Below are positions 3-22,474 of a stretch of 26,457 nucleotides of DNA, piece after piece; position 1 is the first letter of the stretch, and every line of letters begins with the position of its first letter. The DNA comes from a virus: positions 1-26,457 of the IMG/VR virus record IMGVR_UViG_3300031977_001148; one strand, written 5' to 3'. The notes beneath the pieces are model-generated. The model did not search any database and was not told where the DNA came from. It was given only the letters and a program-made list of their open reading frames with translations. The position numbers and the translations under genes are program-made.

Positions 3-347
3 CTGAATGAATGTCAGAGAGGATCTATCTCGGGGACATTGAGTTTGCCCCCAAGTAAGGACTCTGATATATCGGATACGTACACACAACTGTTCGGTGC
101 GATCCGTGACAAGAACTTCAAGAAGATGCGATCATGGGTAGTCAACAACGTTGACGTAGAACCTGCAGCAATCTTCAGAGGTCTCTATGATCGGATGTAC
201 GACTTCGTTGTACCGACTAGTATTCCGCAACTGGTTCTTATCCTTGCGGACTATCAGTACAAGAACGCATTCGTTGCGGACCATGAACTCAACTTGGTTG
301 CTTGTCTCACAGAGGTCATGGCAAACGTGGAAATAAAAAATGCATAA
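3..347 (+). CDS. 44: DNA polymerase clamp loader large subunit (T4 gp44-like), C-terminal part
   Basis: This is the 3' end of an open frame that enters from the left edge, with no stop from base 3 on. The visible 114 or so residues match the C-terminal collar domain of T4 gp44, the AAA+ ATPase that with gp62 loads the gp45 sliding clamp. The clearest stretch is SIPQLVLILADYQYKNAF followed by VADHELNL, which aligns with the end of T4 gp44 as I recall it. The ATPase motifs lie outside the window. A TTG at 39 could be read as a start, but the frame and the homology continue upstream, so the gene is partial, not short. Its stop overlaps the next start (ATG at 340). The order 44-62-regA downstream supports the call. 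Confidence 0.85.
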   Translation: MNECQRGSISGTLSLPPSKDSDISDTYTQLFGAIRDKNFKKMRSWVVNNVDVEPAAIFRGLYDRMYDFVVPTSIPQLVLILADYQYKNAFVADHELNLVACLTEVMANVEIKNA

Positions 348-3288: not shown

Positions 3289-3870
3289 ATGAACATAAAT
3301 CACTATAGACAAAAAGGTTGGGTCGTCATTGAGAACGCACTTAACCTACAACAAGTTGATATGGTCAAAAGTATCGGTGAGGACATGCGTCTCCACGCCG
3401 CAGACTATTCTACATGGAGTGGGATATCGTGCGCAGGTAACTTTGATGATCGACTGTTTCGGTCTTACACCAGTGACACCATGAAAGGGTTCGCACGTGA
3501 GATCTTAGGGGATGAGGTCTATCTCTTCAACGACCAGATCGTCATCAAACTACCCAACGACCGACTCCGTTTCGAACCTCACAAGGACAACCAATACGGA
3601 CCCAATAGTGACGGATCCATCCATACGGTCAATATGTCTTGGATACTTGATGACTTCACCGAAGAGAACGGTACCCTTGAGTTGCAGAACCAAGACGATG
3701 GAGAGTGGGTTACTATATACCCTAAGAAAGGTGACATCGTAGCGATACAGGGGAACACCTATCACAGATCCGGAAGAAATAAATCTGCGTATAGTAGAGG
3801 TTTGTACGCTTGCGTTTACACGGAATCCCCTATACACCTTGAAGGATTTTATACAGAGAAATTTATATGA
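3289..3870 (+). CDS. Phytanoyl-CoA dioxygenase (PhyH)-like Fe(II)/2OG oxygenase
   Basis: The 193-residue protein has the layout of PhyH-family oxygenases. An N-terminal YRQKGWVVIENAL segment leads in. The metal pair is in FEPHKDNQYGP (H98, D100), and the distal His and 2-oxoglutarate-binding Arg are in YHRSGRNKSAYSRGLYACVY (H159, R170). TVNMSWILDDFTEENGTLEL and KKGDIVAIQG are the strands between them, as in the family. The enzyme would hydroxylate an unknown substrate with Fe(II), O2 and 2-oxoglutarate. The ATG comes 5 bases after the terminator T run and lacks a clear ribosome site, so either its transcript reads through the terminator or it starts very close to the ATG. The next gene overlaps its stop (ATGA), suggesting a common unit with the glycosyltransferase-like gene. 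Confidence 0.75.
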   Translation: MNINHYRQKGWVVIENALNLQQVDMVKSIGEDMRLHAADYSTWSGISCAGNFDDRLFRSYTSDTMKGFAREILGDEVYLFNDQIVIKLPNDRLRFEPHKDNQYGPNSDGSIHTVNMSWILDDFTEENGTLELQNQDDGEWVTIYPKKGDIVAIQGNTYHRSGRNKSAYSRGLYACVYTESPIHLEGFYTEKFI

Positions 3871-6590: not shown

Positions 6591-7552
6591 TGTCCAGAAC
6601 TATGCCAGACGGTCAACCCAATCGATTTAGGATTGGGATCGTCGGTCATGGGTTTGTAGGTCAGGCCGTAGAGTATGCGTTTACGCATCCTTTGGTCGAC
6701 TTCTCCCTATATGATCCAAAATACAATACGAGCATCTCATCTCTAAAAGATCAGAGTAAGGATGAACACCCACAGTGCTTCTTCATTGCCGCACCTACCC
6801 CATCAAATGATGATGGTTCTGTGAACGGTAGCATGGTTGAAGAGGCAGTGCTGACATGCTTGAACGATACAGACGCATTGGTTATTGTCAAGTCGACAAT
6901 TACACCTAATGTGATTGACTCCATCTATCAGCAGATAGACAGTGAGAAAGCAGATCGTTTCTGCTACAACCCTGAGTTCTTGACAGAGAAGAATGCTAAG
7001 GCAGACTTTGTGACTGCCAAGTTCCACGTTGTGGGTGGTGCACCGAATGCTATCATGGAGTGCATCGACATCTACGAAATCTTTAGTGGGTGTCAGTCAA
7101 ACGTGTATCACCGAATGACTGCTTATGAAGCATCTTTCGTGAAGTACGCAATCAACTCATTCCTATCGACCAAGATCACCTTCTTCAATCAGTTGTATGA
7201 TCTGGTGAACATGTATGGGTGTAACTTCAACACCATCGTCCGTGCTGTAGGTTCTGACGACCGTGTTGGTATGGGTCACACACGTGTACCAGGTTTCGAC
7301 GGCAAACGTGGATTCGGTGGTGCTTGTCTACCCAAAGATACAAGAGCATTGCTTAATTTCTCGACCTATGATCATCCAGATGGTGGTCAGGTTAGTTTCG
7401 ATCTTCTGCAAAAAGTACTTGACATCAATAGTGCTTATCGTGTACAATACGAACTCGATGAACGTGAAAAAGTCAACAACATTACCTTTGTAGATTTCGG
7501 AGGAAGTAAGAATGTCAATAATGGACAAACTGAAGAAGAACTCGAAGATTAA
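6590..7552 (+). CDS. UDP-glucose 6-dehydrogenase-like protein lacking the C-terminal domain
   Basis: Residues 15-24 carry the NAD-binding GIVGHGFVG. Typical UDP-glucose/GDP-mannose dehydrogenase blocks follow: FIAAPTPSNDDGSVN, VIVKSTITPN, YNPEFLTEKNA and the helix YEASFVKYAINSFLSTK. The catalytic Cys is C246 in GFGGACLPKDT. The reaction would be two-step NAD-dependent oxidation of UDP-glucose to UDP-glucuronate. At 320 residues it stops about 70 residues after the catalytic Cys. Full-length enzymes (about 390-440 residues) have a third, UDP-binding domain there; it is absent. There is no sign of a frameshift, because the frame runs cleanly into the overlapping uvsX start. It may be a compact phage form or may need a partner. 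Confidence 0.85.
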   Translation: MSRTMPDGQPNRFRIGIVGHGFVGQAVEYAFTHPLVDFSLYDPKYNTSISSLKDQSKDEHPQCFFIAAPTPSNDDGSVNGSMVEEAVLTCLNDTDALVIVKSTITPNVIDSIYQQIDSEKADRFCYNPEFLTEKNAKADFVTAKFHVVGGAPNAIMECIDIYEIFSGCQSNVYHRMTAYEASFVKYAINSFLSTKITFFNQLYDLVNMYGCNFNTIVRAVGSDDRVGMGHTRVPGFDGKRGFGGACLPKDTRALLNFSTYDHPDGGQVSFDLLQKVLDINSAYRVQYELDEREKVNNITFVDFGGSKNVNNGQTEEELED

Positions 7553-8567
7553 GGAAACCGCTACCTTATCCACGAGTAGATTCTTCACAGAAAAAGATAT
7601 GGTTCCGACAGATGTGCCGATGGTTAACGTCGCACTGTCGGGATCTGTTAACGGTGGTATTTCCCCAGGACTGACAGTACTTGCTGGTCCTTCCAAGCAC
7701 TTCAAGACTTCATTTGCTCTTCTTATGGCAGGTGCATACTTGAACGCAAAACCAGAGGCAGTTGTCCTCTTCTATGATTCGGAGTTCGGTTCTCCGCAGT
7801 CATACTTCGAGCAGTTCGGTGTCGACACTGACCGTGTCCTACACACACCGATCGCAAACGTCGAAGAACTCAAGTTCGATCTGATCAACCAGTTGGAAGA
7901 ACTCGACCGTGACGATGACGTGATCATCATCATTGACTCGATCGGTAACCTTGCGTCTAAGAAAGAACTAGAGGACGCACTGAACGAGAAGGGTGTCGCA
8001 GACATGTCTCGTGCGAAAGCACTGAAAGGTCTGTTCCGTATGGCAACACCATACTTGACGATGAAGAACATTCCTTTGGTTGCAATCAACCACACGTACA
8101 AAGAGATCGGTTTGTTTCCAAAAGATATCGTCGGTGGTGGTACAGGTATCTACTACTCTGCGGACAACATCTGGATTCTGGGTCGTCAACAAGAGAAGCA
8201 AGGCACGGAGGTTGTTGGATACAACTTCGTCATCAACGTAGAGAAGTCCCGTTATGTCAAAGAGAAGTCTAAGATCCCGATTGGTGTATCTTGGGAAGGT
8301 GGTGTTCAGAAGTATTCGGGTCTACTTGATGTCGCTCTTGCTGGTGGTTATGTTGCTAAACCTTCTAACGGTTGGTATCAAAAAGTTGACACAACTACAG
8401 GCGAACTCGTTGGGACTAAAGTACGAACAAAGGACACCCTAGACGCAGAGTTCTGGGAACCTATTTTTGAGACAACTGATTTTGCAGAGTTCCTTGCCAA
8501 AACCTATAAAATAGGTTATAATAGTACACTTGATGCAGAACGGATTGCCGAACTGGAGGAGGCATGA
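7512..8567 (+). CDS. uvsX: UvsX RecA-like recombinase
   Basis: The 351-residue protein matches T4 UvsX. A Walker A-type loop is at residues 59-67 (GPSKHFKTS), VVLFYDSEFGSP at 84-95, Walker B strand VIIIIDSIGNL at 137-147, and the DNA-binding loop region with INHTYKEIG and GGGTGIYYSAD. UvsX coats single-stranded DNA and drives strand exchange for recombination-dependent replication and repair. A GGAGG site (7499-7503) precedes the ATG at 7512 by 8 bases. The start overlaps the dehydrogenase gene by 41 bases, and a second ATG at 7521 is possible. The stop overlaps the next ATG (GGCATGA). Confidence 0.95.
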   Translation: MSIMDKLKKNSKIKETATLSTSRFFTEKDMVPTDVPMVNVALSGSVNGGISPGLTVLAGPSKHFKTSFALLMAGAYLNAKPEAVVLFYDSEFGSPQSYFEQFGVDTDRVLHTPIANVEELKFDLINQLEELDRDDDVIIIIDSIGNLASKKELEDALNEKGVADMSRAKALKGLFRMATPYLTMKNIPLVAINHTYKEIGLFPKDIVGGGTGIYYSADNIWILGRQQEKQGTEVVGYNFVINVEKSRYVKEKSKIPIGVSWEGGVQKYSGLLDVALAGGYVAKPSNGWYQKVDTTTGELVGTKVRTKDTLDAEFWEPIFETTDFAEFLAKTYKIGYNSTLDAERIAELEEA

Positions 8568-8926
8568 AAGAATTAGATTTAGATAAACCTTGCGAGAACT
8601 TGGACTATATGCTTAGTCCGGTCTTCGATGAAAAGGGTACACAGGTATGGAACGTGAACCTATTACGTGCACCATACGACAATGTGACCATTCGTTACAA
8701 CAACGTTGCGGTTGATGGTGAACGTGGAGCAATGACTTTCAATTTTGAAATCATTGAGGGTGAGACTGAAGAGATGTCACTCGAAAATAAATTGCTCCAA
8801 GAATTTGCAGGTGATGTACTAGGTGATATCCTAGATGCGGCAATTCGAAACAAAACTCTAATGGCACAGGAACGAGATGACGGAAATCAATCTACAGCAG
8901 ACGATTCTACGGAATCTACTGACTAA
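8564..8926 (+). CDS. Conserved hypothetical protein between uvsX and gene 41
   Basis: The 120-residue protein is acidic, with no membrane segment or signal peptide. It has a beta-rich N-terminal half (TQVWNVNLLRAPYDNVTIRY), a helix with EMSLENKLLQEFAGDVLGDIL, and a polar acidic tail ending DDSTESTD. I do not recognise a domain. Its start overlaps the uvsX stop (ATGA) and its last 50 bases overlap the gp41 start, so it is co-translated within the recombination-replication operon. That context suggests a role with UvsX or gp41, but this is inference. Confidence 0.7.
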   Translation: MKELDLDKPCENLDYMLSPVFDEKGTQVWNVNLLRAPYDNVTIRYNNVAVDGERGAMTFNFEIIEGETEEMSLENKLLQEFAGDVLGDILDAAIRNKTLMAQERDDGNQSTADDSTESTD

Positions 8927-10271
8927 CGATTCTTATATGAGGAAGGTCGCTCCCTTCCTTTCACCCGAATACTTTGAGGGGGTCTACAAGGGTCTCTTCA
9001 AAGAATTCACTTCATATATTGCTAAGTTTAACAGTCTGCCCACCAAGGAAGCATTCAAGATCGAGGTGGATTCTGCAGACCGTTTGACTGACGATCAGTA
9101 CCGTGTTGCTATGGAAATCCTACCGGACATATTTCAGTATGCCGAAGAGGATCTTTCATGGTTGGTCGATCGCACAGAGAAGTGGTGTCAAGATCGTGCG
9201 GTATTCAATGCCGTTATGGAATCTATAACTATCATTGACGGTAATCACCAATCTCTGTCACGTAATGCAATACCAGACGTGTTGTCCAAAGCACTGTCCG
9301 TTACGTTTGACACTAACATTGGTCACGACTATCTTGAGTCGGTGGACGCACGTTATGACTTTTATACACAGACTGAGGAACGCATTCCATTCGATCTGGA
9401 CTACTTTAACCGGATCACTAAGGGTGGACTACCTAATAAAACCCTCAACATCGCACTGGCAGGTACGGGTGTGGGTAAGTCTCTCTTCATGTGTCATTGT
9501 GCTGGTGCTTCCCTATCACAAGGAAAGAATGTCCTTTACATCACTATGGAGATGGCTGAAGAACGCATTGCGGAACGGATCGATGCGAATCTACTCAACG
9601 TCCCAATAGACCAACTCGAACACTTGAGCAAAGACATGTTCTCAAATCGAGTCAAGTCTTTGGCAGACAAGACCAATGGTAAACTGATCATCAAGGAGTA
9701 CCCTACGGGTCAGGCACACGCAAATCACTTCCGTGCTTTGTTGAATGAATTGAAACTGAAGAAGAAGTTTACTCCTGATTTGATCTTTATTGATTATCTG
9801 AATATCTGTGCGAGTGCACGAATGAAGGGGATGGGTGGTGCTATTAACTCGTATACGTATATCAAGTCTATTGCTGAAGAGTTACGTGGTCTTGCCGTGG
9901 AATTCGACGTGCCGATCGTGTCTGCAACGCAGACGACTCGTTCTGGTTACTCTAATGATGACTTGGGGTTGGAAGATACGTCCGAGTCTTTTGGACTACC
10001 CGCAACGGCAGATCTCATGTTCGCACTTATCTCCAACGACGAACTCAGTTCGAACGGACAGATCTTAGTCAAGCAGTTGAAGAACAGATACAATGATCCA
10101 AGCAGTAACCAACGATTTGTCGTAGGTATTGACCGGAGTAAAATGCGGTTATTTGATGTTGATCAAAATGATTCTCCCCTAAATAAAGAGGTAGATAATG
10201 GCCCAGCATTTGATAATTCCAACTCAGGTCAAAGAGTATCCTCTGAGAGGTTCTCTGACTTCACTCTTTAA
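8877..10271 (+). CDS. 41: Replicative DNA helicase (T4 gp41/DnaB-like)
   Basis: The 464-residue protein has the DnaB/gp41 plan. An N-terminal helical domain (EINLQQTILRNLLTND) leads to the RecA-like motor with Walker A AGTGVGKS at residues 195-202. YITMEMAEERIAERID follows at 221-236, Walker B LIFIDYLNI at 302-310, then the VSATQTTRSG sensor region and KQLKNRYNDPSSNQRF near the C-terminus. The length is close to T4 gp41 (475 residues). It unwinds DNA ahead of the polymerase as a hexamer and recruits primase. ATG 8877 has AGGA 8 bases upstream and lies 50 bases inside the preceding gene. Confidence 0.95.
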   Translation: MTEINLQQTILRNLLTNDSYMRKVAPFLSPEYFEGVYKGLFKEFTSYIAKFNSLPTKEAFKIEVDSADRLTDDQYRVAMEILPDIFQYAEEDLSWLVDRTEKWCQDRAVFNAVMESITIIDGNHQSLSRNAIPDVLSKALSVTFDTNIGHDYLESVDARYDFYTQTEERIPFDLDYFNRITKGGLPNKTLNIALAGTGVGKSLFMCHCAGASLSQGKNVLYITMEMAEERIAERIDANLLNVPIDQLEHLSKDMFSNRVKSLADKTNGKLIIKEYPTGQAHANHFRALLNELKLKKKFTPDLIFIDYLNICASARMKGMGGAINSYTYIKSIAEELRGLAVEFDVPIVSATQTTRSGYSNDDLGLEDTSESFGLPATADLMFALISNDELSSNGQILVKQLKNRYNDPSSNQRFVVGIDRSKMRLFDVDQNDSPLNKEVDNGPAFDNSNSGQRVSSERFSDFTL

Positions 10272-10635: not shown

Positions 10636-11312
10636 CTGAAGTAGTAATTCGTAATAAAGAAATGTTGGAGGTACTCAACGGATTCTCCGAAGAGATGTTA
10701 TCCAAACCGTCGTACAACGACGAAAAGTACTGGACGTATCATGAGAGAAAGGATATTGACTTGGGGTCTTACTATACCTCACGTGAGTATCTGCTTGATT
10801 GCTTATCTCGTGGTCAAGAAGGTCTAGTTGGCCCGCCTGATCGGTACTTCGCACAACCGATTTCAAAAATGGTGCGAGAAGATAAGGAAATGTGGGGAGA
10901 CTTCATGCAGAAGGTCAAGTATGACTTCGCTGCTGAACTGGGTGCACACACATCTGCTCTCCTTTCTTATTACCCACCCGGAGGTTTCGTGGGTTGGCAT
11001 ACTAACTTTGATGCCAACGCATATCAGGTTCTGTTCACGTGGTCAGAGACCGGAGACGGTTTCTTCGAGTACTACGACAAACAGAAAGACGAAATCATTA
11101 AGATCCCAGATGTTCCTGGTTGGCAGTGTCGTCACTACTACTTTGGTGCTGGTCATGAAACTGATCTGCACTGTTGGCATGCCGCATATACGGAGTGTCA
11201 ACGTATCACACTTGCATACAAGTTTGTGAACAACGGTAGTGTAGATAACCCAGAAGACGCACAAGCACGTCAGTTACGAGACATGCTTATTGAAGATATC
11301 GAGACAGAGTAA
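10632..11312 (+). CDS. 2OG-Fe(II) oxygenase-like protein with atypical metal motif
   Basis: The 226-residue protein has a double-stranded beta-helix-like core. LSYYPPGGFVGWHTNFDAN at residues 111-129 sits where prolyl-hydroxylase-like enzymes have the HxD metal pair. A facial-triad His would be H183 in LHCWHAAYTECQRITLAYKF (179-198), with R191 as a candidate 2-oxoglutarate ligand. The first motif reads H123-T-N125 rather than HxD; D127 is one step too far. The protein may therefore use Asn, use D127, or be inactive. I recall closely similar proteins in marine T4-like phages. It starts on the preceding stop (ATGA) and its stop overlaps the iscU start (TAATG), so it is translated together with the Fe-S scaffold. 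Confidence 0.55.
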   Translation: MTEVVIRNKEMLEVLNGFSEEMLSKPSYNDEKYWTYHERKDIDLGSYYTSREYLLDCLSRGQEGLVGPPDRYFAQPISKMVREDKEMWGDFMQKVKYDFAAELGAHTSALLSYYPPGGFVGWHTNFDANAYQVLFTWSETGDGFFEYYDKQKDEIIKIPDVPGWQCRHYYFGAGHETDLHCWHAAYTECQRITLAYKFVNNGSVDNPEDAQARQLRDMLIEDIETE

Positions 11313-11686
11313 TGTATTCTGACAAGGTCTTAGACCACTATGAGAACCCACGCAATGTGGGAAAGATGGACAAGGAAGACGACAATGTCGGAACTGGTAT
11401 GGTGGGAGCACCTGCTTGTGGTGACGTGATGCAACTACAGATTCTCGTAGACGAAATCGGAATTATCCAAGATGCTAAATTTAAAACTTATGGTTGTGGT
11501 AGTGCTATCGCTTCTAGTTCTTTGCTCACTGAGTGGGTCAAAGGTAAAAGTCTCGAAGATGCCGGGAATATCCGTAATACAGACATCGCAAAAGAACTCG
11601 CACTACCACCAGTAAAAATCCATTGCAGTGTGCTCGCAGAGGATGCGATCAAGGCTGCTATCAAAGACTATAAAGAGAAGCACTAA
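11312..11686 (+). CDS. iscU: Iron-sulfur cluster assembly scaffold IscU
   Basis: The 124-residue protein is a clear IscU. It opens YSDKVLDHYENPRNVG and carries all cluster ligands: C36 and D38 in GAPACGDVM, C62 in TYGCGSAIASSS, and H104 and C105 in KIHCSVLAEDAI. The HscA chaperone recognition motif LPPVK is intact at 98-102. IscU accepts sulfur from IscS and iron, builds a [2Fe-2S] cluster and passes it on. Its length matches bacterial IscU (about 128) and no residue looks damaged, so it should plug into host IscS/HscA/HscB. No other isc genes are in the window. It lies in an overlapping operon between an oxygenase-like gene and an SGNH hydrolase, upstream of gene 43. Confidence 0.96.
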   Translation: MYSDKVLDHYENPRNVGKMDKEDDNVGTGMVGAPACGDVMQLQILVDEIGIIQDAKFKTYGCGSAIASSSLLTEWVKGKSLEDAGNIRNTDIAKELALPPVKIHCSVLAEDAIKAAIKDYKEKH

Positions 11687-12480: not shown

Positions 12481-12509
12481 TTGACAGACACATCCCCACT
12501 CTGTATAAT
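12481..12509 (+). promoter_or_regulatory. Consensus sigma70 promoter for gene 43, leaderless layout
   Basis: TTGACA (12481-12486) and TATAAT (12504-12509) are both perfect consensus boxes with an ideal 17-base spacer. The ATG of gene 43 (12517) is 7 bases after the -10 box, exactly where transcription should start, and there is no ribosome site between them. Confidence 0.88.
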
Positions 12510-12516
12510 AGGCACC

Positions 12517-14991
12517 ATGAATAGATTCTATACCTCAGTGATCCGGATGGGTAACTCCATCCTCTATCGTGGATATGACAACGGACAGCAAGTCAAGTTA
12601 CGTATCCCCTTCAAACCCAAACTCTACATCCAAGGGGACAGTCCGTCCCCGTGGAAAACCCTCACCGGACAGTCCGTGGTGGAGATGCAGTTCGACTCTA
12701 TGACCGACGCTGCAGACCACGTCAAGTTGTACAGTGGGGTCTCTAACTATACCATCTACGGCAACACCAACTACGTTACGCAGTTCATTGCCGAAGAGTA
12801 TCCCAACGATATTCAGTTCGACCGGAGTCAAGTCCGTGTGATGAACATCGATATCGAGGTGGCATCCGACTCCGGATTCCCAGAACCTGAACGGGCAGAG
12901 CATCCCGTTATCTCGATTGCCATTCGCAAGAACGACGGCAACTATTGGGTGTGGGGTCTCAACGACTACACCCCAACACGTGAGGATGTGCTGTTTATCA
13001 AGTGTGACAATGAGGTCGACCTACTCCGAAAGTTTGTAGATCACTGGATCACCTACGCACCCGATGTCGTTACAGGGTGGAATACACGATTCTTCGATAT
13101 CCCATACATCTGTAACCGATGCATCAAGTTGTTTGGTGACGACACGTTACTAAAACGACTCTCTCCGTGGGGTGCGGTTCGTGATCGTAAGCAGAGAATC
13201 AACAACCGTGATCAGCAATACTACGTCATCGAGGGTGTCGAGCATCTGGACTACATCGAGATCTTCAAGAAGTTCACCCTGAATACGTTGGGGCAGCAGG
13301 AATCGTATCGACTCGATCACATTGCTCACGTGGTGTTGGGTGAACGCAAACTCTCGTATGAGGAGCACGGCAACCTACACACCCTCTACAAAGAGGACTA
13401 TCAGAAGTTCATCGACTACAACGTCAAGGACGTGGAGTTGGTGCACAAACTCGATGAGAAACTCGATCTGATCTCTCTGGTGCTCACCATGGCGTATCGT
13501 GGTGGTGTGAACTATGGAGACACCTTGGGCACCACAAACATCTGGGACTCGATCATTTACCGTATGCTGAACAAGCAGAAGATCGCAGTGCCACCCAAGG
13601 TGGAGAAACCCAAGACTCCTTATCCTGGGGGTTACGTCAAAGAACCACAGGTAGGATCGCATGAGTGGGTTACCTCGTTCGACTTGAACTCTCTATACCC
13701 AAACATCATTGTCCAGTACAACATGTCTCCGGAGACAGTACTAGACGGACTGGATCTGTCTGCCAGTGTGCAAGCATTCCTAGACGGGAAGACGGTCACC
13801 GAAGATGGGTATTCTCTCTCACCGACTGGAGTACGATTTACTCATGATCGGAAGGGGGTGATCCCGAAGATCATTGAGCAATACTATGCTGACCGACGCA
13901 TCATCAAAGACAAGATGCTCGAACTGCAACGAGAATACCAGACGAATCCGAGCAAGTCTCTGCAGTACAAGATCACCTCTCTGGACAACCAGCAAATGGC
14001 AATTAAGATCTTGATGAACTCACTCTATGGTGCACTGGGCAACAAGTACTTCCGATACTTCGATCAACGTGTTGCAGAGTCTATTACTCTTGCGGGTCAG
14101 TTGGCAATTAAGTGGGCAGAACGTGCAGTGAACACTGAGATGCAAGGTATACTCCAGACCGATGAGGACTACGTCGTCGCAATCGATACCGACTCTGTTT
14201 ACATTCGCATGGGTGGTTTGATCGATAAGTTCCAACCCAAGAACCCTGTCGGGTTCCTAGACAAGATCTGCTCCACGCATTTCGAGAAACAACTGCGCAA
14301 GGCATACGACCAAATGGCAGCTGCCACGGGTGCATATGTCAATCGCATGGAGATGGGTCGTGAGGTGATTGCTGATCGTGGTATCTGGATGGCGAAGAAA
14401 CGATACATCCTAAACGTCCACAACAACGAGGGTGTCCAGTACGCACAACCCAAACTCAAGATGATGGGCATCGAGGCAATCAAGTCATCGACTCCACAGG
14501 TCGTGCGTGACAAGTTCAAGGAGATCTTTCGGGTCATCGTAGAAGGTACCGAATCAGATACACAACGGTACATTTCTGACTTTAAGTCCCATTTCAAGAC
14601 CTTACCCCCCGAAGATGTCTCATTCCCACGTGGTGTGTCAGAACTCACCAAGTGGATTGATCGTAATACGGTCTACAAGAAGGGCACACCCATCCACGTG
14701 CGAGGGGCACTGTGCTACAACAATGCTATTGTGGAGAAAGGTCTGACCACACGATACGAGTCTGTCAAGACTGGAGAGAAGATTAAGTTTGTCTATCTCA
14801 AGATGCCAAACCGTTTGGGTGAGAACGTCGTCTCCTATCCACTCAATCTTCCGGAGGAGTTGGGTCTGCACCAGTACGTCGATTATGACACCATGTTCGA
14901 CAAGACGTTCCTAGATCCACTCACCCCGATTCTGGATGCGGTGGGATGGACTGCTGAACCTGTTGCATCTTTGGAAGATTTTTTCGGGTAA
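12517..14991 (+). CDS. 43: DNA polymerase, family B (T4 gp43-like)
   Basis: The 824-residue protein has the exonuclease domain first: Exo [10 protein letters not shown] (D112, E114), Exo [12 protein letters not shown] at 185-194 and Exo [12 protein letters not shown] at 301-309. The polymerase palm and fingers follow: [11 protein letters not shown] at 387-397, [14 protein letters not shown] at 497-510 and the catalytic AIDTDS at 555-560. The extreme C-terminus SLEDFFG resembles the clamp-binding tail of T4 gp43. It is the replicative polymerase with proofreading, somewhat shorter than T4 gp43 (898). The frame is open from a TTG at 12481, but that TTG is the -35 box; ATG 12517 gives MNRFYTSV, like the T4 start. 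RegA, three kilobases of early genes away, is a likely repressor by analogy with T4. Confidence 0.97.
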
Positions 14992-16695: not shown

Positions 16696-16804
16696 GTTAG
16701 CAGAAGAGTACGCAAGACTCATGAATAAGTACGGGGACAATCCACGTCCGTCTCGTGTCAAGCAACTCAACAAGTTGAAGCGGTATCTACGTAGAACACT
16801 GTAA
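16679..16804 (+). CDS. Small basic protein (41 aa)
   Basis: An ATG at 16679 with GAGGA (16666-16670) 8 bases upstream opens a 41-codon frame, MTYQSRLAEEYARLMNKYGD then NPRPSRVKQLNKLKRYLRRT, ending in the TAA at 16802-16804. It is strongly basic and helical in its C-terminal half. Its stop overlaps the lysin start (TAATG), so the tiling of overlaps supports a real gene. The function is unknown; nucleic-acid binding is plausible from charge only. Confidence 0.6.
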   Translation: MTYQSRLAEEYARLMNKYGDNPRPSRVKQLNKLKRYLRRTL

Positions 16805-17286
16805 TGCTACGTTACATATCGATTGCTTTTCTTGTTGCTATAACGTCATATGCGTACGCACAGGAAGAGAGAGCAAAGAGTGAGATCGAATGCCTTGCGA
16901 TGAATGTCTATCACGAGGCACGATCTGAGAGTCTAGCAGGACAGTATGCGGTTGCAGACGTTGTCTTGAATCGTGTGGAGTCGAGACTCTACCCCGACAG
17001 TATCTGTGGGGTTGTGTTTCAGGCAAAGACTTGGGAAGGAGTCCCAATTCGGGACAAGTGCCAGTTCAGTTGGTACTGCGACGGTAAGTCGGACCATCCC
17101 ACTGAGGTCGACTCGTGGTTACGATCGATCACCGTTGCAGTCAACATCCTACACAAGAACCAGTTCAGAGGGATTACAGAGAGTGCCACACACTACCACA
17201 CCGACTATGTCAGTCCGAATTGGAATAAGTCTATGGACTATATTGGTCGTATCGGAAATCATCTATTTTATTTGGAGACACGATAA
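16804..17286 (+). CDS. SleB/CwlJ-type cell wall hydrolase with signal peptide (candidate endolysin)
   Basis: The 160-residue protein has a Sec signal peptide (residues 1-19, MLRYISIAFLVAITSYAYA, cleavage likely before Gln20). A Hydrolase_2 domain follows: IECLAMNVYHEARSES with catalytic Glu38, QYAVADVVLNRV, YPDSICGVVFQ and CQFSWYCDGKSDHP, then ATHYHTDYVSPNW. Such enzymes cleave peptidoglycan as lytic transglycosylases or glucosaminidases. A secreted phage lysin of this type can reach the wall without a holin pore or be held until the membrane collapses. It overlaps both neighbours by one base (TAATG), and no holin is evident nearby. It may instead be a host-like wall-remodelling enzyme. Confidence 0.85.
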   Translation: MLRYISIAFLVAITSYAYAQEERAKSEIECLAMNVYHEARSESLAGQYAVADVVLNRVESRLYPDSICGVVFQAKTWEGVPIRDKCQFSWYCDGKSDHPTEVDSWLRSITVAVNILHKNQFRGITESATHYHTDYVSPNWNKSMDYIGRIGNHLFYLETR

Positions 17287-17519
17287 TGCTTGATCTAGTA
17301 ATCTCTCTTTCCCTAAATACTAGTGCTCCGGAAGAACTCGTTCCCATTAAAAGCAAGGAACGAGAGATTGCCGAGCAGATATTTGAGGAGTCGTACAAAG
17401 AGAAGCGATCGATTCTGAGGACAAGAAAAGTCGTCGTACCTATCGAGGACCGTACAGATTTTGTCCTAAGATTTAGAAACAGAGATGCTCTAACGGTTGT
17501 CTACTACTTTGATATATGA
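17286..17519 (+). CDS. Hypothetical protein
   Basis: The 77-residue protein starts on the lysin stop (TAATG). Residues 1-12 are hydrophobic (MLDLVISLSLNT) but short for a signal peptide. The centre is charged and helical (SKEREIAEQIFEESYKEKR) and the end is a mixed strand region (ALTVVYYFDI). No family is recognised. The promoter for the next gene lies within its last 25 bases. It is part of the 16471-17519 overlapping operon. Confidence 0.6.
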   Translation: MLDLVISLSLNTSAPEELVPIKSKEREIAEQIFEESYKEKRSILRTRKVVVPIEDRTDFVLRFRNRDALTVVYYFDI

Positions 17520-17525
17520 TATAAT
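17497..17525 (+). promoter_or_regulatory. Sigma70-type promoter with extended -10
   Basis: TTGTCT (17497-17502) and TATAAT (17520-17525) are 17 bases apart, with TG one base before the -10. The block TATGATATAATACAC (17515-17529) is identical to that at 4683-4697. Transcription would start near 17532, before the ribosome site AAGGA at 17542. Confidence 0.7.
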
Positions 17526-17549: not shown

Positions 17550-17807
17550 ATGGAAGGATTAACATATCCGTCAACATATTTTCGTGATGGTGCGGTTGAT
17601 CTTGGTAATGTATACGTTGTAATGGATCCAATGGCATTTATCATTGGAGTATACAAGTGTCCTGAAAAGGCAATTGATAAAGCCATATTAGAAGTACGCA
17701 GTGGATTCCTAGATGATAGTGTCCACGTTGAAGCGTCAGACGTTGCAATATTTGTTGAAGGGGGAAAGGGCAAGATTGTAATTCTCATCGAACAGATTCG
17801 AGGTTAA
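17550..17807 (+). CDS. Hypothetical protein behind a strong promoter
   Basis: The 85-residue protein is mostly short hydrophobic strands (NVYVVMDPMAFIIGVYKC, DVAIFVEGGKGKIVILIEQI) with one helix (EKAIDKAILEV), which suggests a small alpha/beta domain. There is no signal peptide. A good AAGGA site is 4 bases before the ATG. It is the first gene after the promoter at 17497-17525, and tRNA-Glu and isocitrate lyase follow. I do not recognise a family. Confidence 0.65.
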   Translation: MEGLTYPSTYFRDGAVDLGNVYVVMDPMAFIIGVYKCPEKAIDKAILEVRSGFLDDSVHVEASDVAIFVEGGKGKIVILIEQIRG

Positions 17808-17833: not shown

Positions 17834-17909
17834 GTCCCGTTCGTCTAGTGGTCTAGGACTCCGCCCTTTCACGGCGGCAACAGGGGTTCGAACCCCCTAC
17901 GGGATACCA
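17834..17909 (+). tRNA. tRNA-Glu (TTC)
   Basis: This is a full cloverleaf with encoded CCA. Acceptor GTCCCGT pairs with ACGGGAT (the first pair is a G-T wobble), the anticodon stem is CCGCC/GGCGG with loop CTTTCAC (anticodon TTC), and the T arm is GGGGTTCGAACCCC. The sequence closely resembles bacterial tRNA-Glu. It reads GAA and GAG. Confidence 0.95.
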
Positions 17910-17929: not shown

Positions 17930-19171
17930 ATGAAAAAACGAGATTATTCACCAGACGAAGTTCGTCGTCTAAAAGGAACCGTGCAGATCGATCACACCCT
18001 CGCAAAAATGGGTGCGAAAAAACTGCGCCAACTGTTCGAAGAGAACGAGTACATTAACACATTTGGAGCATACAATGGACAGCAAGCAGTCCAACACGTC
18101 AAAGCAGGACTCAAAGCAATCTATCTTTCAGGGTGGCAAGTTGCCGCGTCTGCGAACTCTCATCACGAAGTTTATCCAGATCAGTCCCTTTATGGTGTTG
18201 ATAGTGTGCCTAATGTTGTCAAGTCTATCAATAATGCATTTAGACGACAAGACCAGATCGAATATCTGGAGTCTGGAAACGGGTTTGAATTTGCCCCTAT
18301 TATTGCCGACGCTGAGGCAGGATTCGGAGGAGTTCTAAATGCGTATGAACTTGCTCGAAACCTTATCGAGGCAGGTGCTGCAGGTGTTCACTTCGAAGAT
18401 CAAGTGGCTGCCGAAAAGAAGTGCGGACACCTTGGAGGAAAAGTTCTTATTCCTACTAGTCAAGCAATACGCAATCTTAATGCCGCTCGCCTTGCTAGTG
18501 ACGTTGCTGACACCGATACTGTTGTTATTGCTCGTACTGATGCCGAGTCTGCTAAGTTAATCTCTAGCAACATATCAGATATCGATAAACCATTTATCAG
18601 GAGAGTCGCACAAGGGAGTGCGGGATCTATTCAATGTCGTACACAAGAAGGGTTCTATCAACTACAGGAAGATAGGGGACTAGAGTTCGGTTGTGTACGT
18701 GGTCAGGCATATGCAGAATACGCAGACCTCGTTTGGTGCGAGACATCGACACCAGACTTGAAGGATGCGAAACGATTTGCCGACGCAGTCAAAGGAGCAG
18801 TGCCAGACGCAATGTTGGCATACAACTGCTCACCATCATTCAACTGGAGAAAGTCCATACCAGGTGACCAAGAACTAAAAGAGTTCCAGAGAGAACTAGG
18901 TCGCATGGGATTCAAGTTCCAGTTTATAACACTTGCTGGTTTCCACCAGACTAACTATGCAATCTTTGATTTCGCAAACCGATACAAAGATGAGGGGATG
19001 TATGCTTACAGTTTATTACAGGAGGCAGAGTTCGATGCAGAGGCACGTGGGTACACAGGAGCAAAACACCAGAGAGAAGTTGGAGTCGGGTACTTTGACG
19101 CAATTACGACAACTCTTGGTTCGTCTTCTACCGCAGCGATGGCAGGGTCGACCGAAGAAAACCAATTTTAA
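17930..19171 (+). CDS. aceA: Isocitrate lyase (glyoxylate shunt)
   Basis: The 413-residue protein is a full-length isocitrate lyase close in plan to E. coli AceA (434). Visible blocks are YLSGWQVAASAN at 65-76, the metal/substrate region IIADAEAGFGGVLNA at 124-138, the signature KKCGHLGGK at 163-171 with catalytic C165, LVWCETSTPDL, NCSPSFNW, FQFITLAGFHQ, and the C-terminus GSTEENQF (E. coli: GSTEESQF). It splits isocitrate into glyoxylate and succinate, bypassing the CO2-releasing TCA steps. Every key motif is intact, so it is probably active. No malate synthase is in the window. It follows tRNA-Glu by 20 bases, with only a weak ribosome site, so it may be expressed from the 17497 or tRNA promoter. 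A hairpin follows its stop. Confidence 0.97.
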   Translation: MKKRDYSPDEVRRLKGTVQIDHTLAKMGAKKLRQLFEENEYINTFGAYNGQQAVQHVKAGLKAIYLSGWQVAASANSHHEVYPDQSLYGVDSVPNVVKSINNAFRRQDQIEYLESGNGFEFAPIIADAEAGFGGVLNAYELARNLIEAGAAGVHFEDQVAAEKKCGHLGGKVLIPTSQAIRNLNAARLASDVADTDTVVIARTDAESAKLISSNISDIDKPFIRRVAQGSAGSIQCRTQEGFYQLQEDRGLEFGCVRGQAYAEYADLVWCETSTPDLKDAKRFADAVKGAVPDAMLAYNCSPSFNWRKSIPGDQELKEFQRELGRMGFKFQFITLAGFHQTNYAIFDFANRYKDEGMYAYSLLQEAEFDAEARGYTGAKHQREVGVGYFDAITTTLGSSSTAAMAGSTEENQF

Positions 19172-19220: not shown

Positions 19221-19433
19221 ATGCCAATCAAATATAAGAGAAGTAACGTTGCGAAGAGTCGTTTGAAGAAGACTAGGACGCAACACTTCTATATGCACCA
19301 ACTCGACAACACGCAACTCTGGAAGGAGTTCGACAGTTGTAATGAAAAGAAGTACAAGAACAAGATGCGCACAGAGTTGTACAAGCGTGGGTTCAAGTTA
19401 GAGGACTTCGTACAAAGGGCATCTGAAGGATGA
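19221..19433 (+). CDS. Small basic hypothetical protein
   Basis: The 70-residue, strongly basic protein (KYKRSNVAKSRLKKTRTQHF) has a helical second half containing CNEKKYKNKMRTELYKRGF. I recall similar short proteins in marine T4-like phages but no function. GAGGG about 9 bases upstream is a usable ribosome site. It starts 24 bases after the hairpin following isocitrate lyase, and its stop overlaps the methyltransferase ATG. Charge suggests nucleic-acid or ribosome binding, without proof. Confidence 0.65.
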   Translation: MPIKYKRSNVAKSRLKKTRTQHFYMHQLDNTQLWKEFDSCNEKKYKNKMRTELYKRGFKLEDFVQRASEG

Positions 19434-19996
19434 TCGACACGTCTTTTTTAACCGAAGGACTAAAGAAAGTCGAAGGTCATCTACAAACAACCACAAGGAC
19501 AGTGGATACATTCACAGAGATCTATGACATCATAAAACCGTCTAAGGTCTTTGAGATAGGATTTAATGCTGGTCATAGTGCCTACATGTCATTGACAATC
19601 CTACCCGAAGTGATGTATCATTCTGTAGATATTGGTATGCACAAGTACAGTGCTGTTAATGCTGAAAAACTCAGTGAGGTGTTCGGAGATAGGTTTGCCT
19701 ATCAAGAAGTCGACTCCCAGAAGATTGTTGCGTCGTCTATGAAAGGATACGACGTAGTATTTGTTGACGGAGACCACAGTGTAAAAGGTGTTAGTTCAGA
19801 TCTTAATCTATGTAATAGTACGGCAGTGCCGTACATCTTGGTCGATGATTACCACCCTAAGTGGTTCAAGGTTGTCATAGAACTGACAGAGCATTACCTA
19901 AACAAGGACGACTTCCCCTATGAGATGGTGAAGGTGTTCGATTACGATTCTAAGGACGGCAACAACAGTGTTGCCCTTTTGAAGAGAGTGGAATGA
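19430..19996 (+). CDS. Class I SAM-dependent methyltransferase-like protein
   Basis: The 188-residue protein has the Rossmann-type methyltransferase core. Motif I is VFEIGFNAGHSA at 40-51 (E-x-G-x-x-x-G), an acidic residue follows strand 2 (SVDIG, D67), and YDVVFVDGDHSVKGVSSDL at 107-125 resembles the Methyltransf_24 group with VDGDH. It ends with a strand pattern (NNSVALLKR) as in that fold. The substrate is unknown; members modify sugars, small molecules or proteins. It overlaps both neighbours by 4 bases, so it is part of a tight operon from 19221 to 20280. Confidence 0.8.
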   Translation: MIDTSFLTEGLKKVEGHLQTTTRTVDTFTEIYDIIKPSKVFEIGFNAGHSAYMSLTILPEVMYHSVDIGMHKYSAVNAEKLSEVFGDRFAYQEVDSQKIVASSMKGYDVVFVDGDHSVKGVSSDLNLCNSTAVPYILVDDYHPKWFKVVIELTEHYLNKDDFPYEMVKVFDYDSKDGNNSVALLKRVE

Positions 19997-20547: not shown

Positions 20548-20921
20548 AGTTTAAGATAGTGTACAGAGAAGAGAACGAGTCAATCTTCCCTTGGAAGTCT
20601 CGATTCCGTGGTGTGGTACTATGGCCGTATGTCATCATGCGACCAAAGAAATATGCAACAGGATCAGTTGCACAGTCGGAGATGATGACACGACGTTCAC
20701 TCGTTAAGTTGTATCGACATGAGTTGCAACACTGCTACCAGATCAAACGCATGGGGGTTATCAAATTTTACGTGAGGTACGTCTGGTTGAATCTTATCAA
20801 GGGGTATCAGAACCACCCTGATGAGATCGAGGCAAGACAATACGAGAACGAGAAGTTAACTCAACTCGAAGAGAAGTGGCTTCACAATGGGGTCATAGAT
20901 TTGTCAGAGATGGAGGATTGA
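20544..20921 (+). CDS. Small HExxH protein, putative zinc metallopeptidase-like
   Basis: The 125-residue protein has LYRHELQHCYQIKRMG with the zincin motif H59-E-L-Q-H63. An acidic NHPDEIEARQYE at 90-101 (E94 or E96) could give the third zinc ligand, as in gluzincin-like folds. A hydrophobic stretch between them (FYVRYVWLNLI) may be a buried or membrane-facing helix. This arrangement is seen in small phage and bacterial domains of unknown substrate. It overlaps both neighbours, the following peroxiredoxin by a single base. Proteolysis is inferred only from the motif. Confidence 0.55.
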   Translation: MKFKIVYREENESIFPWKSRFRGVVLWPYVIMRPKKYATGSVAQSEMMTRRSLVKLYRHELQHCYQIKRMGVIKFYVRYVWLNLIKGYQNHPDEIEARQYENEKLTQLEEKWLHNGVIDLSEMED

Positions 20922-21514
20922 TGACAGATAATGATAATCGGTGGATGAAAATCACCGGAATGAAAGTAGGCGATACGTTGCCCGAAGCAACGTTTCAGAC
21001 ACGAGTACGTGATGAAAGTATTGGTGGACCTAACCCATACCGATGGGAAGAGACCACGATGGAAGACTACACAAAGGGTCGACGTGTAGTAATCTTCTCT
21101 TTACCAGGGGCATTCACCCCTACCTGTTCGACCATGCAGTTACCTACGTTCGAAGAAAAGTTCGACCAGTTTGTCGATCTTGGTATTGACGACATCTATT
21201 GCATGTCGGTAAACGATTCGTTCGTGATGAACGCATGGGCACGAGAGCAAGAACTTAAGAGGGTCAAGGTGATCCCAGATGGTTCTGGTCACTTTACACG
21301 TGCGATGGGAATGCTTGTCGACAAAGACAATTTAGGATTCGGATACCGTTCTTGGAGATATGCAATGGTCGTCACCGATGGTGTGATCGAGGCATTGTTC
21401 CGTGAAGCAAGTATCCGTGACAATGCGGATGATGATCCGTATGAGATGACCACCCCTGAAAACCTACTTGGGTATTTGCGCAATGCGATACCACAAGGAG
21501 AAGAGGTGGCATAA
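20921..21514 (+). CDS. Peroxiredoxin (Prx5/AhpE-like thiol peroxidase)
   Basis: The 197-residue protein has the Prx5-type block VVIFSLPGAFTPTCSTMQLP with peroxidatic Cys69. LGIDDIYCMSVNDSFVMNAW and YRSWRYAMVVTDGVIEALF (active-site Arg) also fit. Peroxiredoxins reduce H2O2 and organic peroxides using a thiol donor. No glutaredoxin domain is attached, so reduction would rely on host thioredoxin or glutaredoxin. The frame is open from 20876, but ATG 20921 is chosen: it has GGAGG 4 bases upstream, overlaps the previous stop (TGATG) and starts right before the domain. It is the last + strand gene before a convergent - strand gene only 4 bases away. Confidence 0.93.
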   Translation: MTDNDNRWMKITGMKVGDTLPEATFQTRVRDESIGGPNPYRWEETTMEDYTKGRRVVIFSLPGAFTPTCSTMQLPTFEEKFDQFVDLGIDDIYCMSVNDSFVMNAWAREQELKRVKVIPDGSGHFTRAMGMLVDKDNLGFGYRSWRYAMVVTDGVIEALFREASIRDNADDDPYEMTTPENLLGYLRNAIPQGEEVA

Positions 21515-22120: not shown

Positions 22121-22474
22121 ATGACCATGAAGGCCGGAAAGATTTGGGGACAGACAGAACTCATACACGCAAATGGTGTGTTGGAGTTTCACCGTATCGA
22201 GTACAAGAAAGGTTTCAAGTGTTCTGAGCATCTCCACCAGTATAAGTGGAACGGATTCTTTGTAGAGTCCGGTCAGATGATCGTGCGTGTATGGCAAGAC
22301 GACCAAGACGGTCTTGTCGATGAAACTATTCTCAATGCGGGTGACTTCACTCAAGTCAAACCTGGTAAGATTCACCAGTTCGAAGGACTTAAAGACGGAG
22401 TCGCATTCGAGTTATACTGGGCAGAGTTTAACCACAACGACATCGTTCGTCGCACTATCGGGAGTAAGTCTTGA
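22121..22474 (+). CDS. Cupin-domain protein
   Basis: The 117-residue single cupin has motif 1 CSEHLHQYKWNGFFVESG (H37, H39, E49) and motif 2 GDFTQVKPGKIHQFEG (H85). This is the standard metal-binding set of two His, one Glu and one His. Cupins bind Fe, Mn, Ni or Zn and serve as isomerases, dioxygenases or binding proteins. The size suits a small sugar or keto-acid binding enzyme, but the substrate is unknown. A second ATG at 22127 is possible. It starts 26 bases after tRNA-Leu and its stop overlaps the next ATG (TGATG). Confidence 0.8.
   Translation: MTMKAGKIWGQTELIHANGVLEFHRIEYKKGFKCSEHLHQYKWNGFFVESGQMIVRVWQDDQDGLVDETILNAGDFTQVKPGKIHQFEGLKDGVAFELYWAEFNHNDIVRRTIGSKS

Follow-up and report, generated by a model that had tools for sequence, protein, structure and literature searches.

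An isocitrate lyase gene at a fixed site in a lineage of marine T4-type phages, and its possible link with respiration

The isocitrate lyase gene and its surroundings

The stretch of viral DNA analysed here (hereafter the window) comprises 26,457 nucleotides and corresponds to positions 1 to 26,457 of the IMG/VR record IMGVR_UViG_3300031977_001148. On its plus strand, at positions 17930-19171, exactly as stated in the initial annotation, lies an open reading frame that starts with ATG and codes for 413 amino acids followed by a stop codon, and that family, fold and motif evidence identify as isocitrate lyase (ICL, aceA). To its left, on the same strand, are found an endolysin (cell-wall hydrolase, SleB-like; 16804-17286), which is a conserved neighbour, an 85-aa ORF at 17550-17807 (the 17550 ORF), which forms a conserved left border in ICL carriers and non-carriers alike, and a tRNA-Glu (TTC) gene at 17834-17909, which ends about 20 bp before the ICL start and is likewise found at the empty site of sister phages devoid of ICL. 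To its right, again on the plus strand, follow a conserved 70-aa ORF (19221-19433), a class I SAM methyltransferase-like protein (PF13578; 19430-19996) and a peroxiredoxin (redoxin; 20876-21514), the last of which also occurs close to viral ICL genes in several lineages. This layout bears out the early description of a gene placed between a phage tRNA and small phage genes, and the GC content is flat over the whole ICL region.

The T4-type setting proposed at the outset is equally borne out by the plus-strand genes for the UvsX recombinase (7512-8567), the gp41-type DnaB-like helicase (8877-10271) and the gp43 DNA polymerase (12481-14991), the last of which sets the phage lineage. These form a T4-type replication set with the C-terminal part of a clamp loader gene (3-347, plus strand), 82% identical to residues 202-314 of its counterpart in phage C48C1. 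A primase, seven tRNAs and a NifU-like Fe-S cluster scaffold (11312-11686, plus strand) are present as well, and the T4-type structural module lies outside the window but is present in the close relative C48C1. As a side observation, gp43 is shifted downstream of the NifU and 11686 ORFs in the window, a gene order shared with contigs L010, L166 and L167, whereas it precedes the primase in most relatives. The window also codes for a PhyH-type 2OG-Fe(II) oxygenase (3289-3870) and a cupin protein (22121-22474).

The nearest good upstream promoter candidate for the 17550 ORF, tRNA-Glu and ICL is a sigma-70-like site, TTGTCT-17-TATAAT with TG before the -10 box (17497-17525, plus strand); it is a consensus match only, and the ten such sites found in the window against 7.6 expected in shuffles support it weakly. 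A TTGACA-18-TATAAT site stands directly upstream of ICL in L003-L005. No T4 late promoter motif was detected near ICL, and the two matches elsewhere are at chance level.

That the gene codes for a complete AceA, as initially claimed, is confirmed by two curated equivalog models for isocitrate lyase, in which membership corresponds to a score above the cut-off over the full length: the window protein reaches 619 bits with NCBIfam NF011645 (cut-off 562) and 503 bits with TIGR01346 (cut-off 276), and it also matches Pfam PF00463. It aligns end to end with solved ICLs (e.g. 6lrp, E=4e-152, residues 4-413). The enzymes of M. tuberculosis (Icl1, 1f61) and C. aurantiacus (6lrp), about 57% identical to it, share its fold, catalytic motifs and C-terminal tail, but differ at the N-terminus, a variable region that is about 25 residues shorter in the window ICL and its viral relatives than in bacterial ICLs. 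Residues 163-167 read KKCGH, and SGW, YPDQ, DAEAGFGG, HFEDQ, ARTDA, YNCSPSFNW, FQFITLAGFH and the C-terminal STE..QF tail are all retained; in ICLs, the catalytic and metal-binding residues sit in the motifs other than the tail, ITLAGFH being the relevant part of the last one before it. The KKCGH loop, the acidic residues of the metal site and the C-terminal tail that characterize AceA are thus all found, and the key motif positions do not vary among 16 diverse viral relatives with identities down to 67%. An AlphaFold model built from 16 viral relatives, of moderate confidence (pLDDT 76) and low in the active-site loops, retrieved only ICLs as top Foldseek matches in the PDB, with a TM-score of about 0.85.

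Given that ICL, methylisocitrate lyase and PEP mutase belong to one superfamily, an enzyme acting on a related substrate such as 2-methylisocitrate could be envisaged; this is nevertheless very improbable in the light of the 111 bits obtained with the methylisocitrate lyase (PrpB) model, well under its cut-off of 354, as against the ICL equivalog score above, and of the presence of KKCGH and of the full-length C-terminal ICL regions. Besides, dN/dS values of 0.04-0.10 between the window ICL and its close relatives, with changes dominated by the third codon position, indicate strong purifying selection, and no sign of decay is apparent in the reading frame. Judged by its sequence, the enzyme is most likely active and would convert isocitrate into succinate and glyoxylate.

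A phage gene at a defined site

ICL relatives are encoded by at least 382 IMG/VR viral stretches, while no PHROGs family matches the window ICL. The best viral matches reach 90-97% identity, the best cellular one 76-79%. More than 20 other viral contigs, together with the circular genome of phage C48C1 (OQ984149.1; 156,191 bp, T4-like, complete), hold a copy 87-97% identical, mostly in the same neighbourhood. The ICL of C48C1 is annotated as 'hypothetical protein' in a record that gives no host; it is 96.6% identical to that of the window and its neighbourhood is largely the same, but C48C1 differs in having a succinate dehydrogenase subunit (SdhB) and a small ORF upstream of ICL and no tRNA-Glu directly before it. 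Among the 50,697 phage records searched, C48C1 is the only one with a phage-embedded close copy; records labelled as Salmonella or E. coli phages, whose ICLs are 54-56% identical, have the appearance of host DNA, as judged by their labels and identity.

Some twenty close contigs display the fixed order endolysin - 17550 ORF - tRNA-Glu - ICL, most of which is also seen in C48C1. ICL usually lies directly 3' of tRNA-Glu; no such tRNA directly precedes it in C48C1, L003-L006 and L018, and a tRNA-Pro takes its place in L022. T4-like sister phages, whose gp43 is about 73-77% identical to that of the window, have no ICL in their records, and an empty site is recognizable in G036, G037 and G047, where endolysin, 17550 ORF and tRNA-Glu are followed by the downstream ORFs, tRNA-Asn/Leu and cupin; contig ends in G043 and G050 preserve the left portion of this layout. 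A conserved locus combined with an empty site marks ICL as an accessory gene that is gained or lost at one particular position.

The window being a single short contig (26 kb), host DNA misassembled into phage sequence had to be considered, as the initial annotation itself had pointed out. Since many independent contigs share these junctions, a circular genome has a close copy in mostly the same neighbourhood and the sisters have the empty site, misassembly is excluded for the lineage, and with best matches that are viral rather than cellular it can practically be dismissed for the window too. Taken together, ICL is a genuine phage gene of the auxiliary metabolic type, namely a metabolic gene of cellular type that has become established in phage genomes and is subject to selection.

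Regarding the lineage, C48C1 is placed in the Kyanoviridae by the NCBI taxonomy, and the closest matches of gp43 and terminase are those of cyanophages, at 45-49%. Despite this, a cyanophage reading was rejected, psbA being absent from all 12 records tested. A weak host hint comes from one of 396 related bacterial genomes, the marine gammaproteobacterial MAG G062, with which a 106-kb contig carrying T4-like genes (G062:C28; L333, L334) was binned; its UvsX is 70% and its polymerase 50% identical to those of the window, and no ICL was found on it. The host is expected among the marine Gammaproteobacteria.

Viral aceA genes have been encountered before. Hurwitz et al. (2013) attributed aceA and aceB gene families from Pacific Ocean viromes to viruses (PMC4053976), and Nishimura et al. 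(2017) described an aceBA operon in the T4-like environmental viral genome TARA_ERS478052_N000008 (PMC5332604); viral ICL also appears in Antarctic and Tibetan data sets (PMC10721903, PMC12783922). Viral aceA is therefore less new than first suggested: the early statement that no cultured T4-type phage is known to have aceA holds insofar as C48C1, itself given no host, is the only phage record with a phage-embedded close copy, but it has to be set against these virome and environmental genome reports. The TARA genome resembles the window phage as an oceanic virus with aceA among T4-like structural genes and differs in pairing it with aceB, a comparison made by description rather than by sequence (PMC5332604). 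The Pacific viromes likewise assign glyoxylate-shunt genes to viruses, as gene families outside any genome context and, in the part of the report available, with no link to alternative oxidase or SdhB (PMC4053976). What is added here is an aceA without malate synthase in a T4-like lineage, the co-carriage of alternative oxidase, and an ICL-oxidase pair on a gammaproteobacterial contig, within a coherent T4-type lineage defined by a fixed aceA site and an empty-site comparison.

Malate synthase, alternative oxidase and exchange with bacteria

Among the window ORFs tested, the window being a fragment, no malate synthase was matched, in agreement with the initial annotation, and a PF01274 HMM search found none in C48C1 and 29 other viral records, some of them 137-338 kb long. 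It follows that host enzymes must handle the glyoxylate, as had also been proposed. A scan of viral contigs with a gammaproteobacterial malate synthase as query found nothing; this reflects a limit of sensitivity, since clustering of the ORFs near ICL revealed malate synthase in 24 loci with distantly related viral ICLs, mostly immediately upstream of aceA, and it is accordingly the HMM search of whole records that supports the absence in the lineage. A phage-encoded glyoxylate shunt, with aceA and aceB in the same phage, is hence not what the window's lineage displays, and two viral designs exist: aceBA, and aceA alone. Separate viral ICL lineages (L281-L327), some on contigs above 200 kb, hold such aceB-aceA pairs.

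When ORFs up to 7 kb away from viral ICLs were clustered, another partner emerged, an alternative oxidase (AOX; PF01786, 225-226 bits against a cut-off of 22.7) related in sequence to the solved mitochondrial AOX. Of the 49 wider-clade loci, 24 have it at most 2.5 kb away from ICL, upstream or downstream, examples being L018:3802-4371, L028:9236-9802 and L048:10240-10881. For the close T4-type clade, the usual location of AOX is elsewhere in the genome; such a gene is present in C48C1 (OQ984149.1:26279-26830) and in five other ICL-bearing records of this clade. In C48C1 it immediately precedes the clamp loader gene. The window breaks off within this very gene, so AOX is not seen in it and, if placed as in C48C1, would lie just off its edge. 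The two are not obligate partners, given that G013 and G015 (about 160 kb) have ICL and no AOX, whereas the ICL-less sister G037 has AOX. Few genomes of the bacterial order searched, 7 of 396, have an AOX. Besides, C48C1 codes for SdhB between endolysin and ICL (350 bits, cut-off 228), an arrangement seen near ICL in C48C1 only, where SdhB alone amounts to an incomplete enzyme. These neighbours suggest that ICL may be linked to uncoupled respiration in these viruses, and no report of an AOX-ICL linkage in phages was found in the open-licence literature.

Other small genes accompany these loci. Many phages encode, beginning 3 bp behind ICL, a conserved hydrophobic protein of 112 aa without a Pfam match (L009:1317-1655 and relatives). 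An ORF of the window, at 19993, was considered as its counterpart, but a direct search showed a different protein, and the window is without the 112-aa ORF. A cytochrome c-like lipoprotein stands between ICL and AOX in the viral contig L048 (9750-10211). A di-haem cytochrome c peroxidase/MauG-like protein is present in C48C1 (L082:33816-35237), with homologues in L003 and L010 and also in ICL-less sisters (the listed loci being L003, L010 and L248-L250).

The comparison of AceA with viral and bacterial sequences, suggested early on as a check, gives closest matches that are viral. The nearest cellular ICLs are those of marine Gammaproteobacteria, namely the MAG contig L086 (76-79%) and streamlined genomes (about 67-74%); other members of the bacterial order that were drawn reach 51-60% and Pelagibacter 56%. 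In the maximum-likelihood tree, L086 is nested in the viral clade holding the window, and the streamlined gammaproteobacteria group with the viral L074 beside that clade. An AU test rejects holding the viral ICLs together with p = 0.001, an optimistic value since the tested group was chosen after the first tree. On L086, ICL, AOX and the 112-aa membrane ORF stand beside coxB and coxA; ICL and AOX overlap by 4 bp both there and in phage L028, and the 112-aa ORF follows in both. As L086 is a 6-kb MAG contig, a single-contig error is possible there. An ICL-AOX pair on a gammaproteobacterial contig and the rejection of a virus-only ancestry nevertheless indicate that these genes moved between phages and such bacteria, the nested ICLs pointing to phage-bacterium exchange of a central-metabolism gene. 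In the proposed scenario, ICL would have been exchanged with marine Gammaproteobacteria and, in the window's lineage, placed after the tRNA-Glu gene.

Possible roles of the phage enzyme

The reading preferred here, to which we give a probability of roughly 0.7, is that a functional, phage-owned ICL serves as an auxiliary metabolic gene of a marine T4-type lineage, its succinate going to respiration and its glyoxylate to host enzymes. It builds on the identity of the enzyme, its active site, selection and position, the empty site, the absence of aceB and the AOX and SdhB of relatives; activity, expression in infection, flux and benefit are presumed from these. A host-type promoter, for which 17497-17525 is the candidate in the window, would drive ICL transcription. 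During infection, ICL would cleave isocitrate into succinate and glyoxylate, so that carbon skips the two TCA-cycle steps at which CO2 is released. The succinate would enter the respiratory chain via succinate dehydrogenase, and the SdhB and AOX of related phages may pass its electrons to oxygen with no proton pumping. Glyoxylate would be used by the host, either by malate synthase to give malate or by aminotransfer to give glycine for purines. That the phage could benefit is made plausible by Pseudoalteromonas infected by phage HP1, in which host aceA and aceB are the most highly expressed TCA-cycle genes (PMC7082346). The whole suggests a virus that redirects host carbon and electron flow. 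Should the enzymes function as predicted, marine phages would rewire a TCA branch point and the respiratory electron disposal of heterotrophic bacteria, affecting the share of host carbon respired versus going into virus particles.

A serious contender, although judged somewhat short of even odds, is the classic carbon-saving glyoxylate shunt, in which phage ICL would feed host malate synthase and acetyl-CoA from acetate or fatty acids would be assimilated, the AOX and SdhB links being incidental. Of the 8 marine gammaproteobacterial genomes whose ICLs are the nearest cellular ones, 6 indeed have malate synthase, aceB directly adjoins aceA in other viral lineages, and host aceA and aceB are both up in HP1-infected cells (PMC7082346). 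However, the window's lineage kept aceA without aceB; the closest cellular carrier, G056, a MAG that may be incomplete, shows no malate synthase; and AOX occurs beside ICL far above random placement in a genome of roughly 150 kb, even if related loci are not independent. Use of acetate or fatty acids for growth, put forward in the initial annotation as the purpose of the gene, is not supported; the associated AOX and SdhB genes, to which that annotation had no access, speak instead for a role centred on succinate and the flow of respiratory electrons.

Within the preferred reading, a more specific respiratory bypass is put forward tentatively: with succinate supplied by ICL, phage SdhB might aid succinate dehydrogenase and phage AOX might drop the electrons without energy coupling, so that biosynthetic carbon flow could be kept when host oxidative phosphorylation is limiting. 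T4-type cyanophages carry a plastoquinol terminal oxidase of the AOX family; the phages considered here differ by the absence of psbA (12 of 12 records) and by the link of the oxidase with ICL. If true, the bypass would be, in phages of heterotrophs, the equivalent of the photosynthesis and terminal-oxidase genes that cyanophages carry.

Finally, glyoxylate itself could be the wanted product. Its conversion to glycine is established biochemistry, and transamination could supply purine and protein synthesis during phage replication. We regard this as rather unlikely, since no glyoxylate aminotransferase or glycine-pathway gene appears among the window ORFs tested or in the C48C1 annotation, even though the phage lacks aceB, phages require purines and C48C1 codes for a ribonucleotide reductase of its own.
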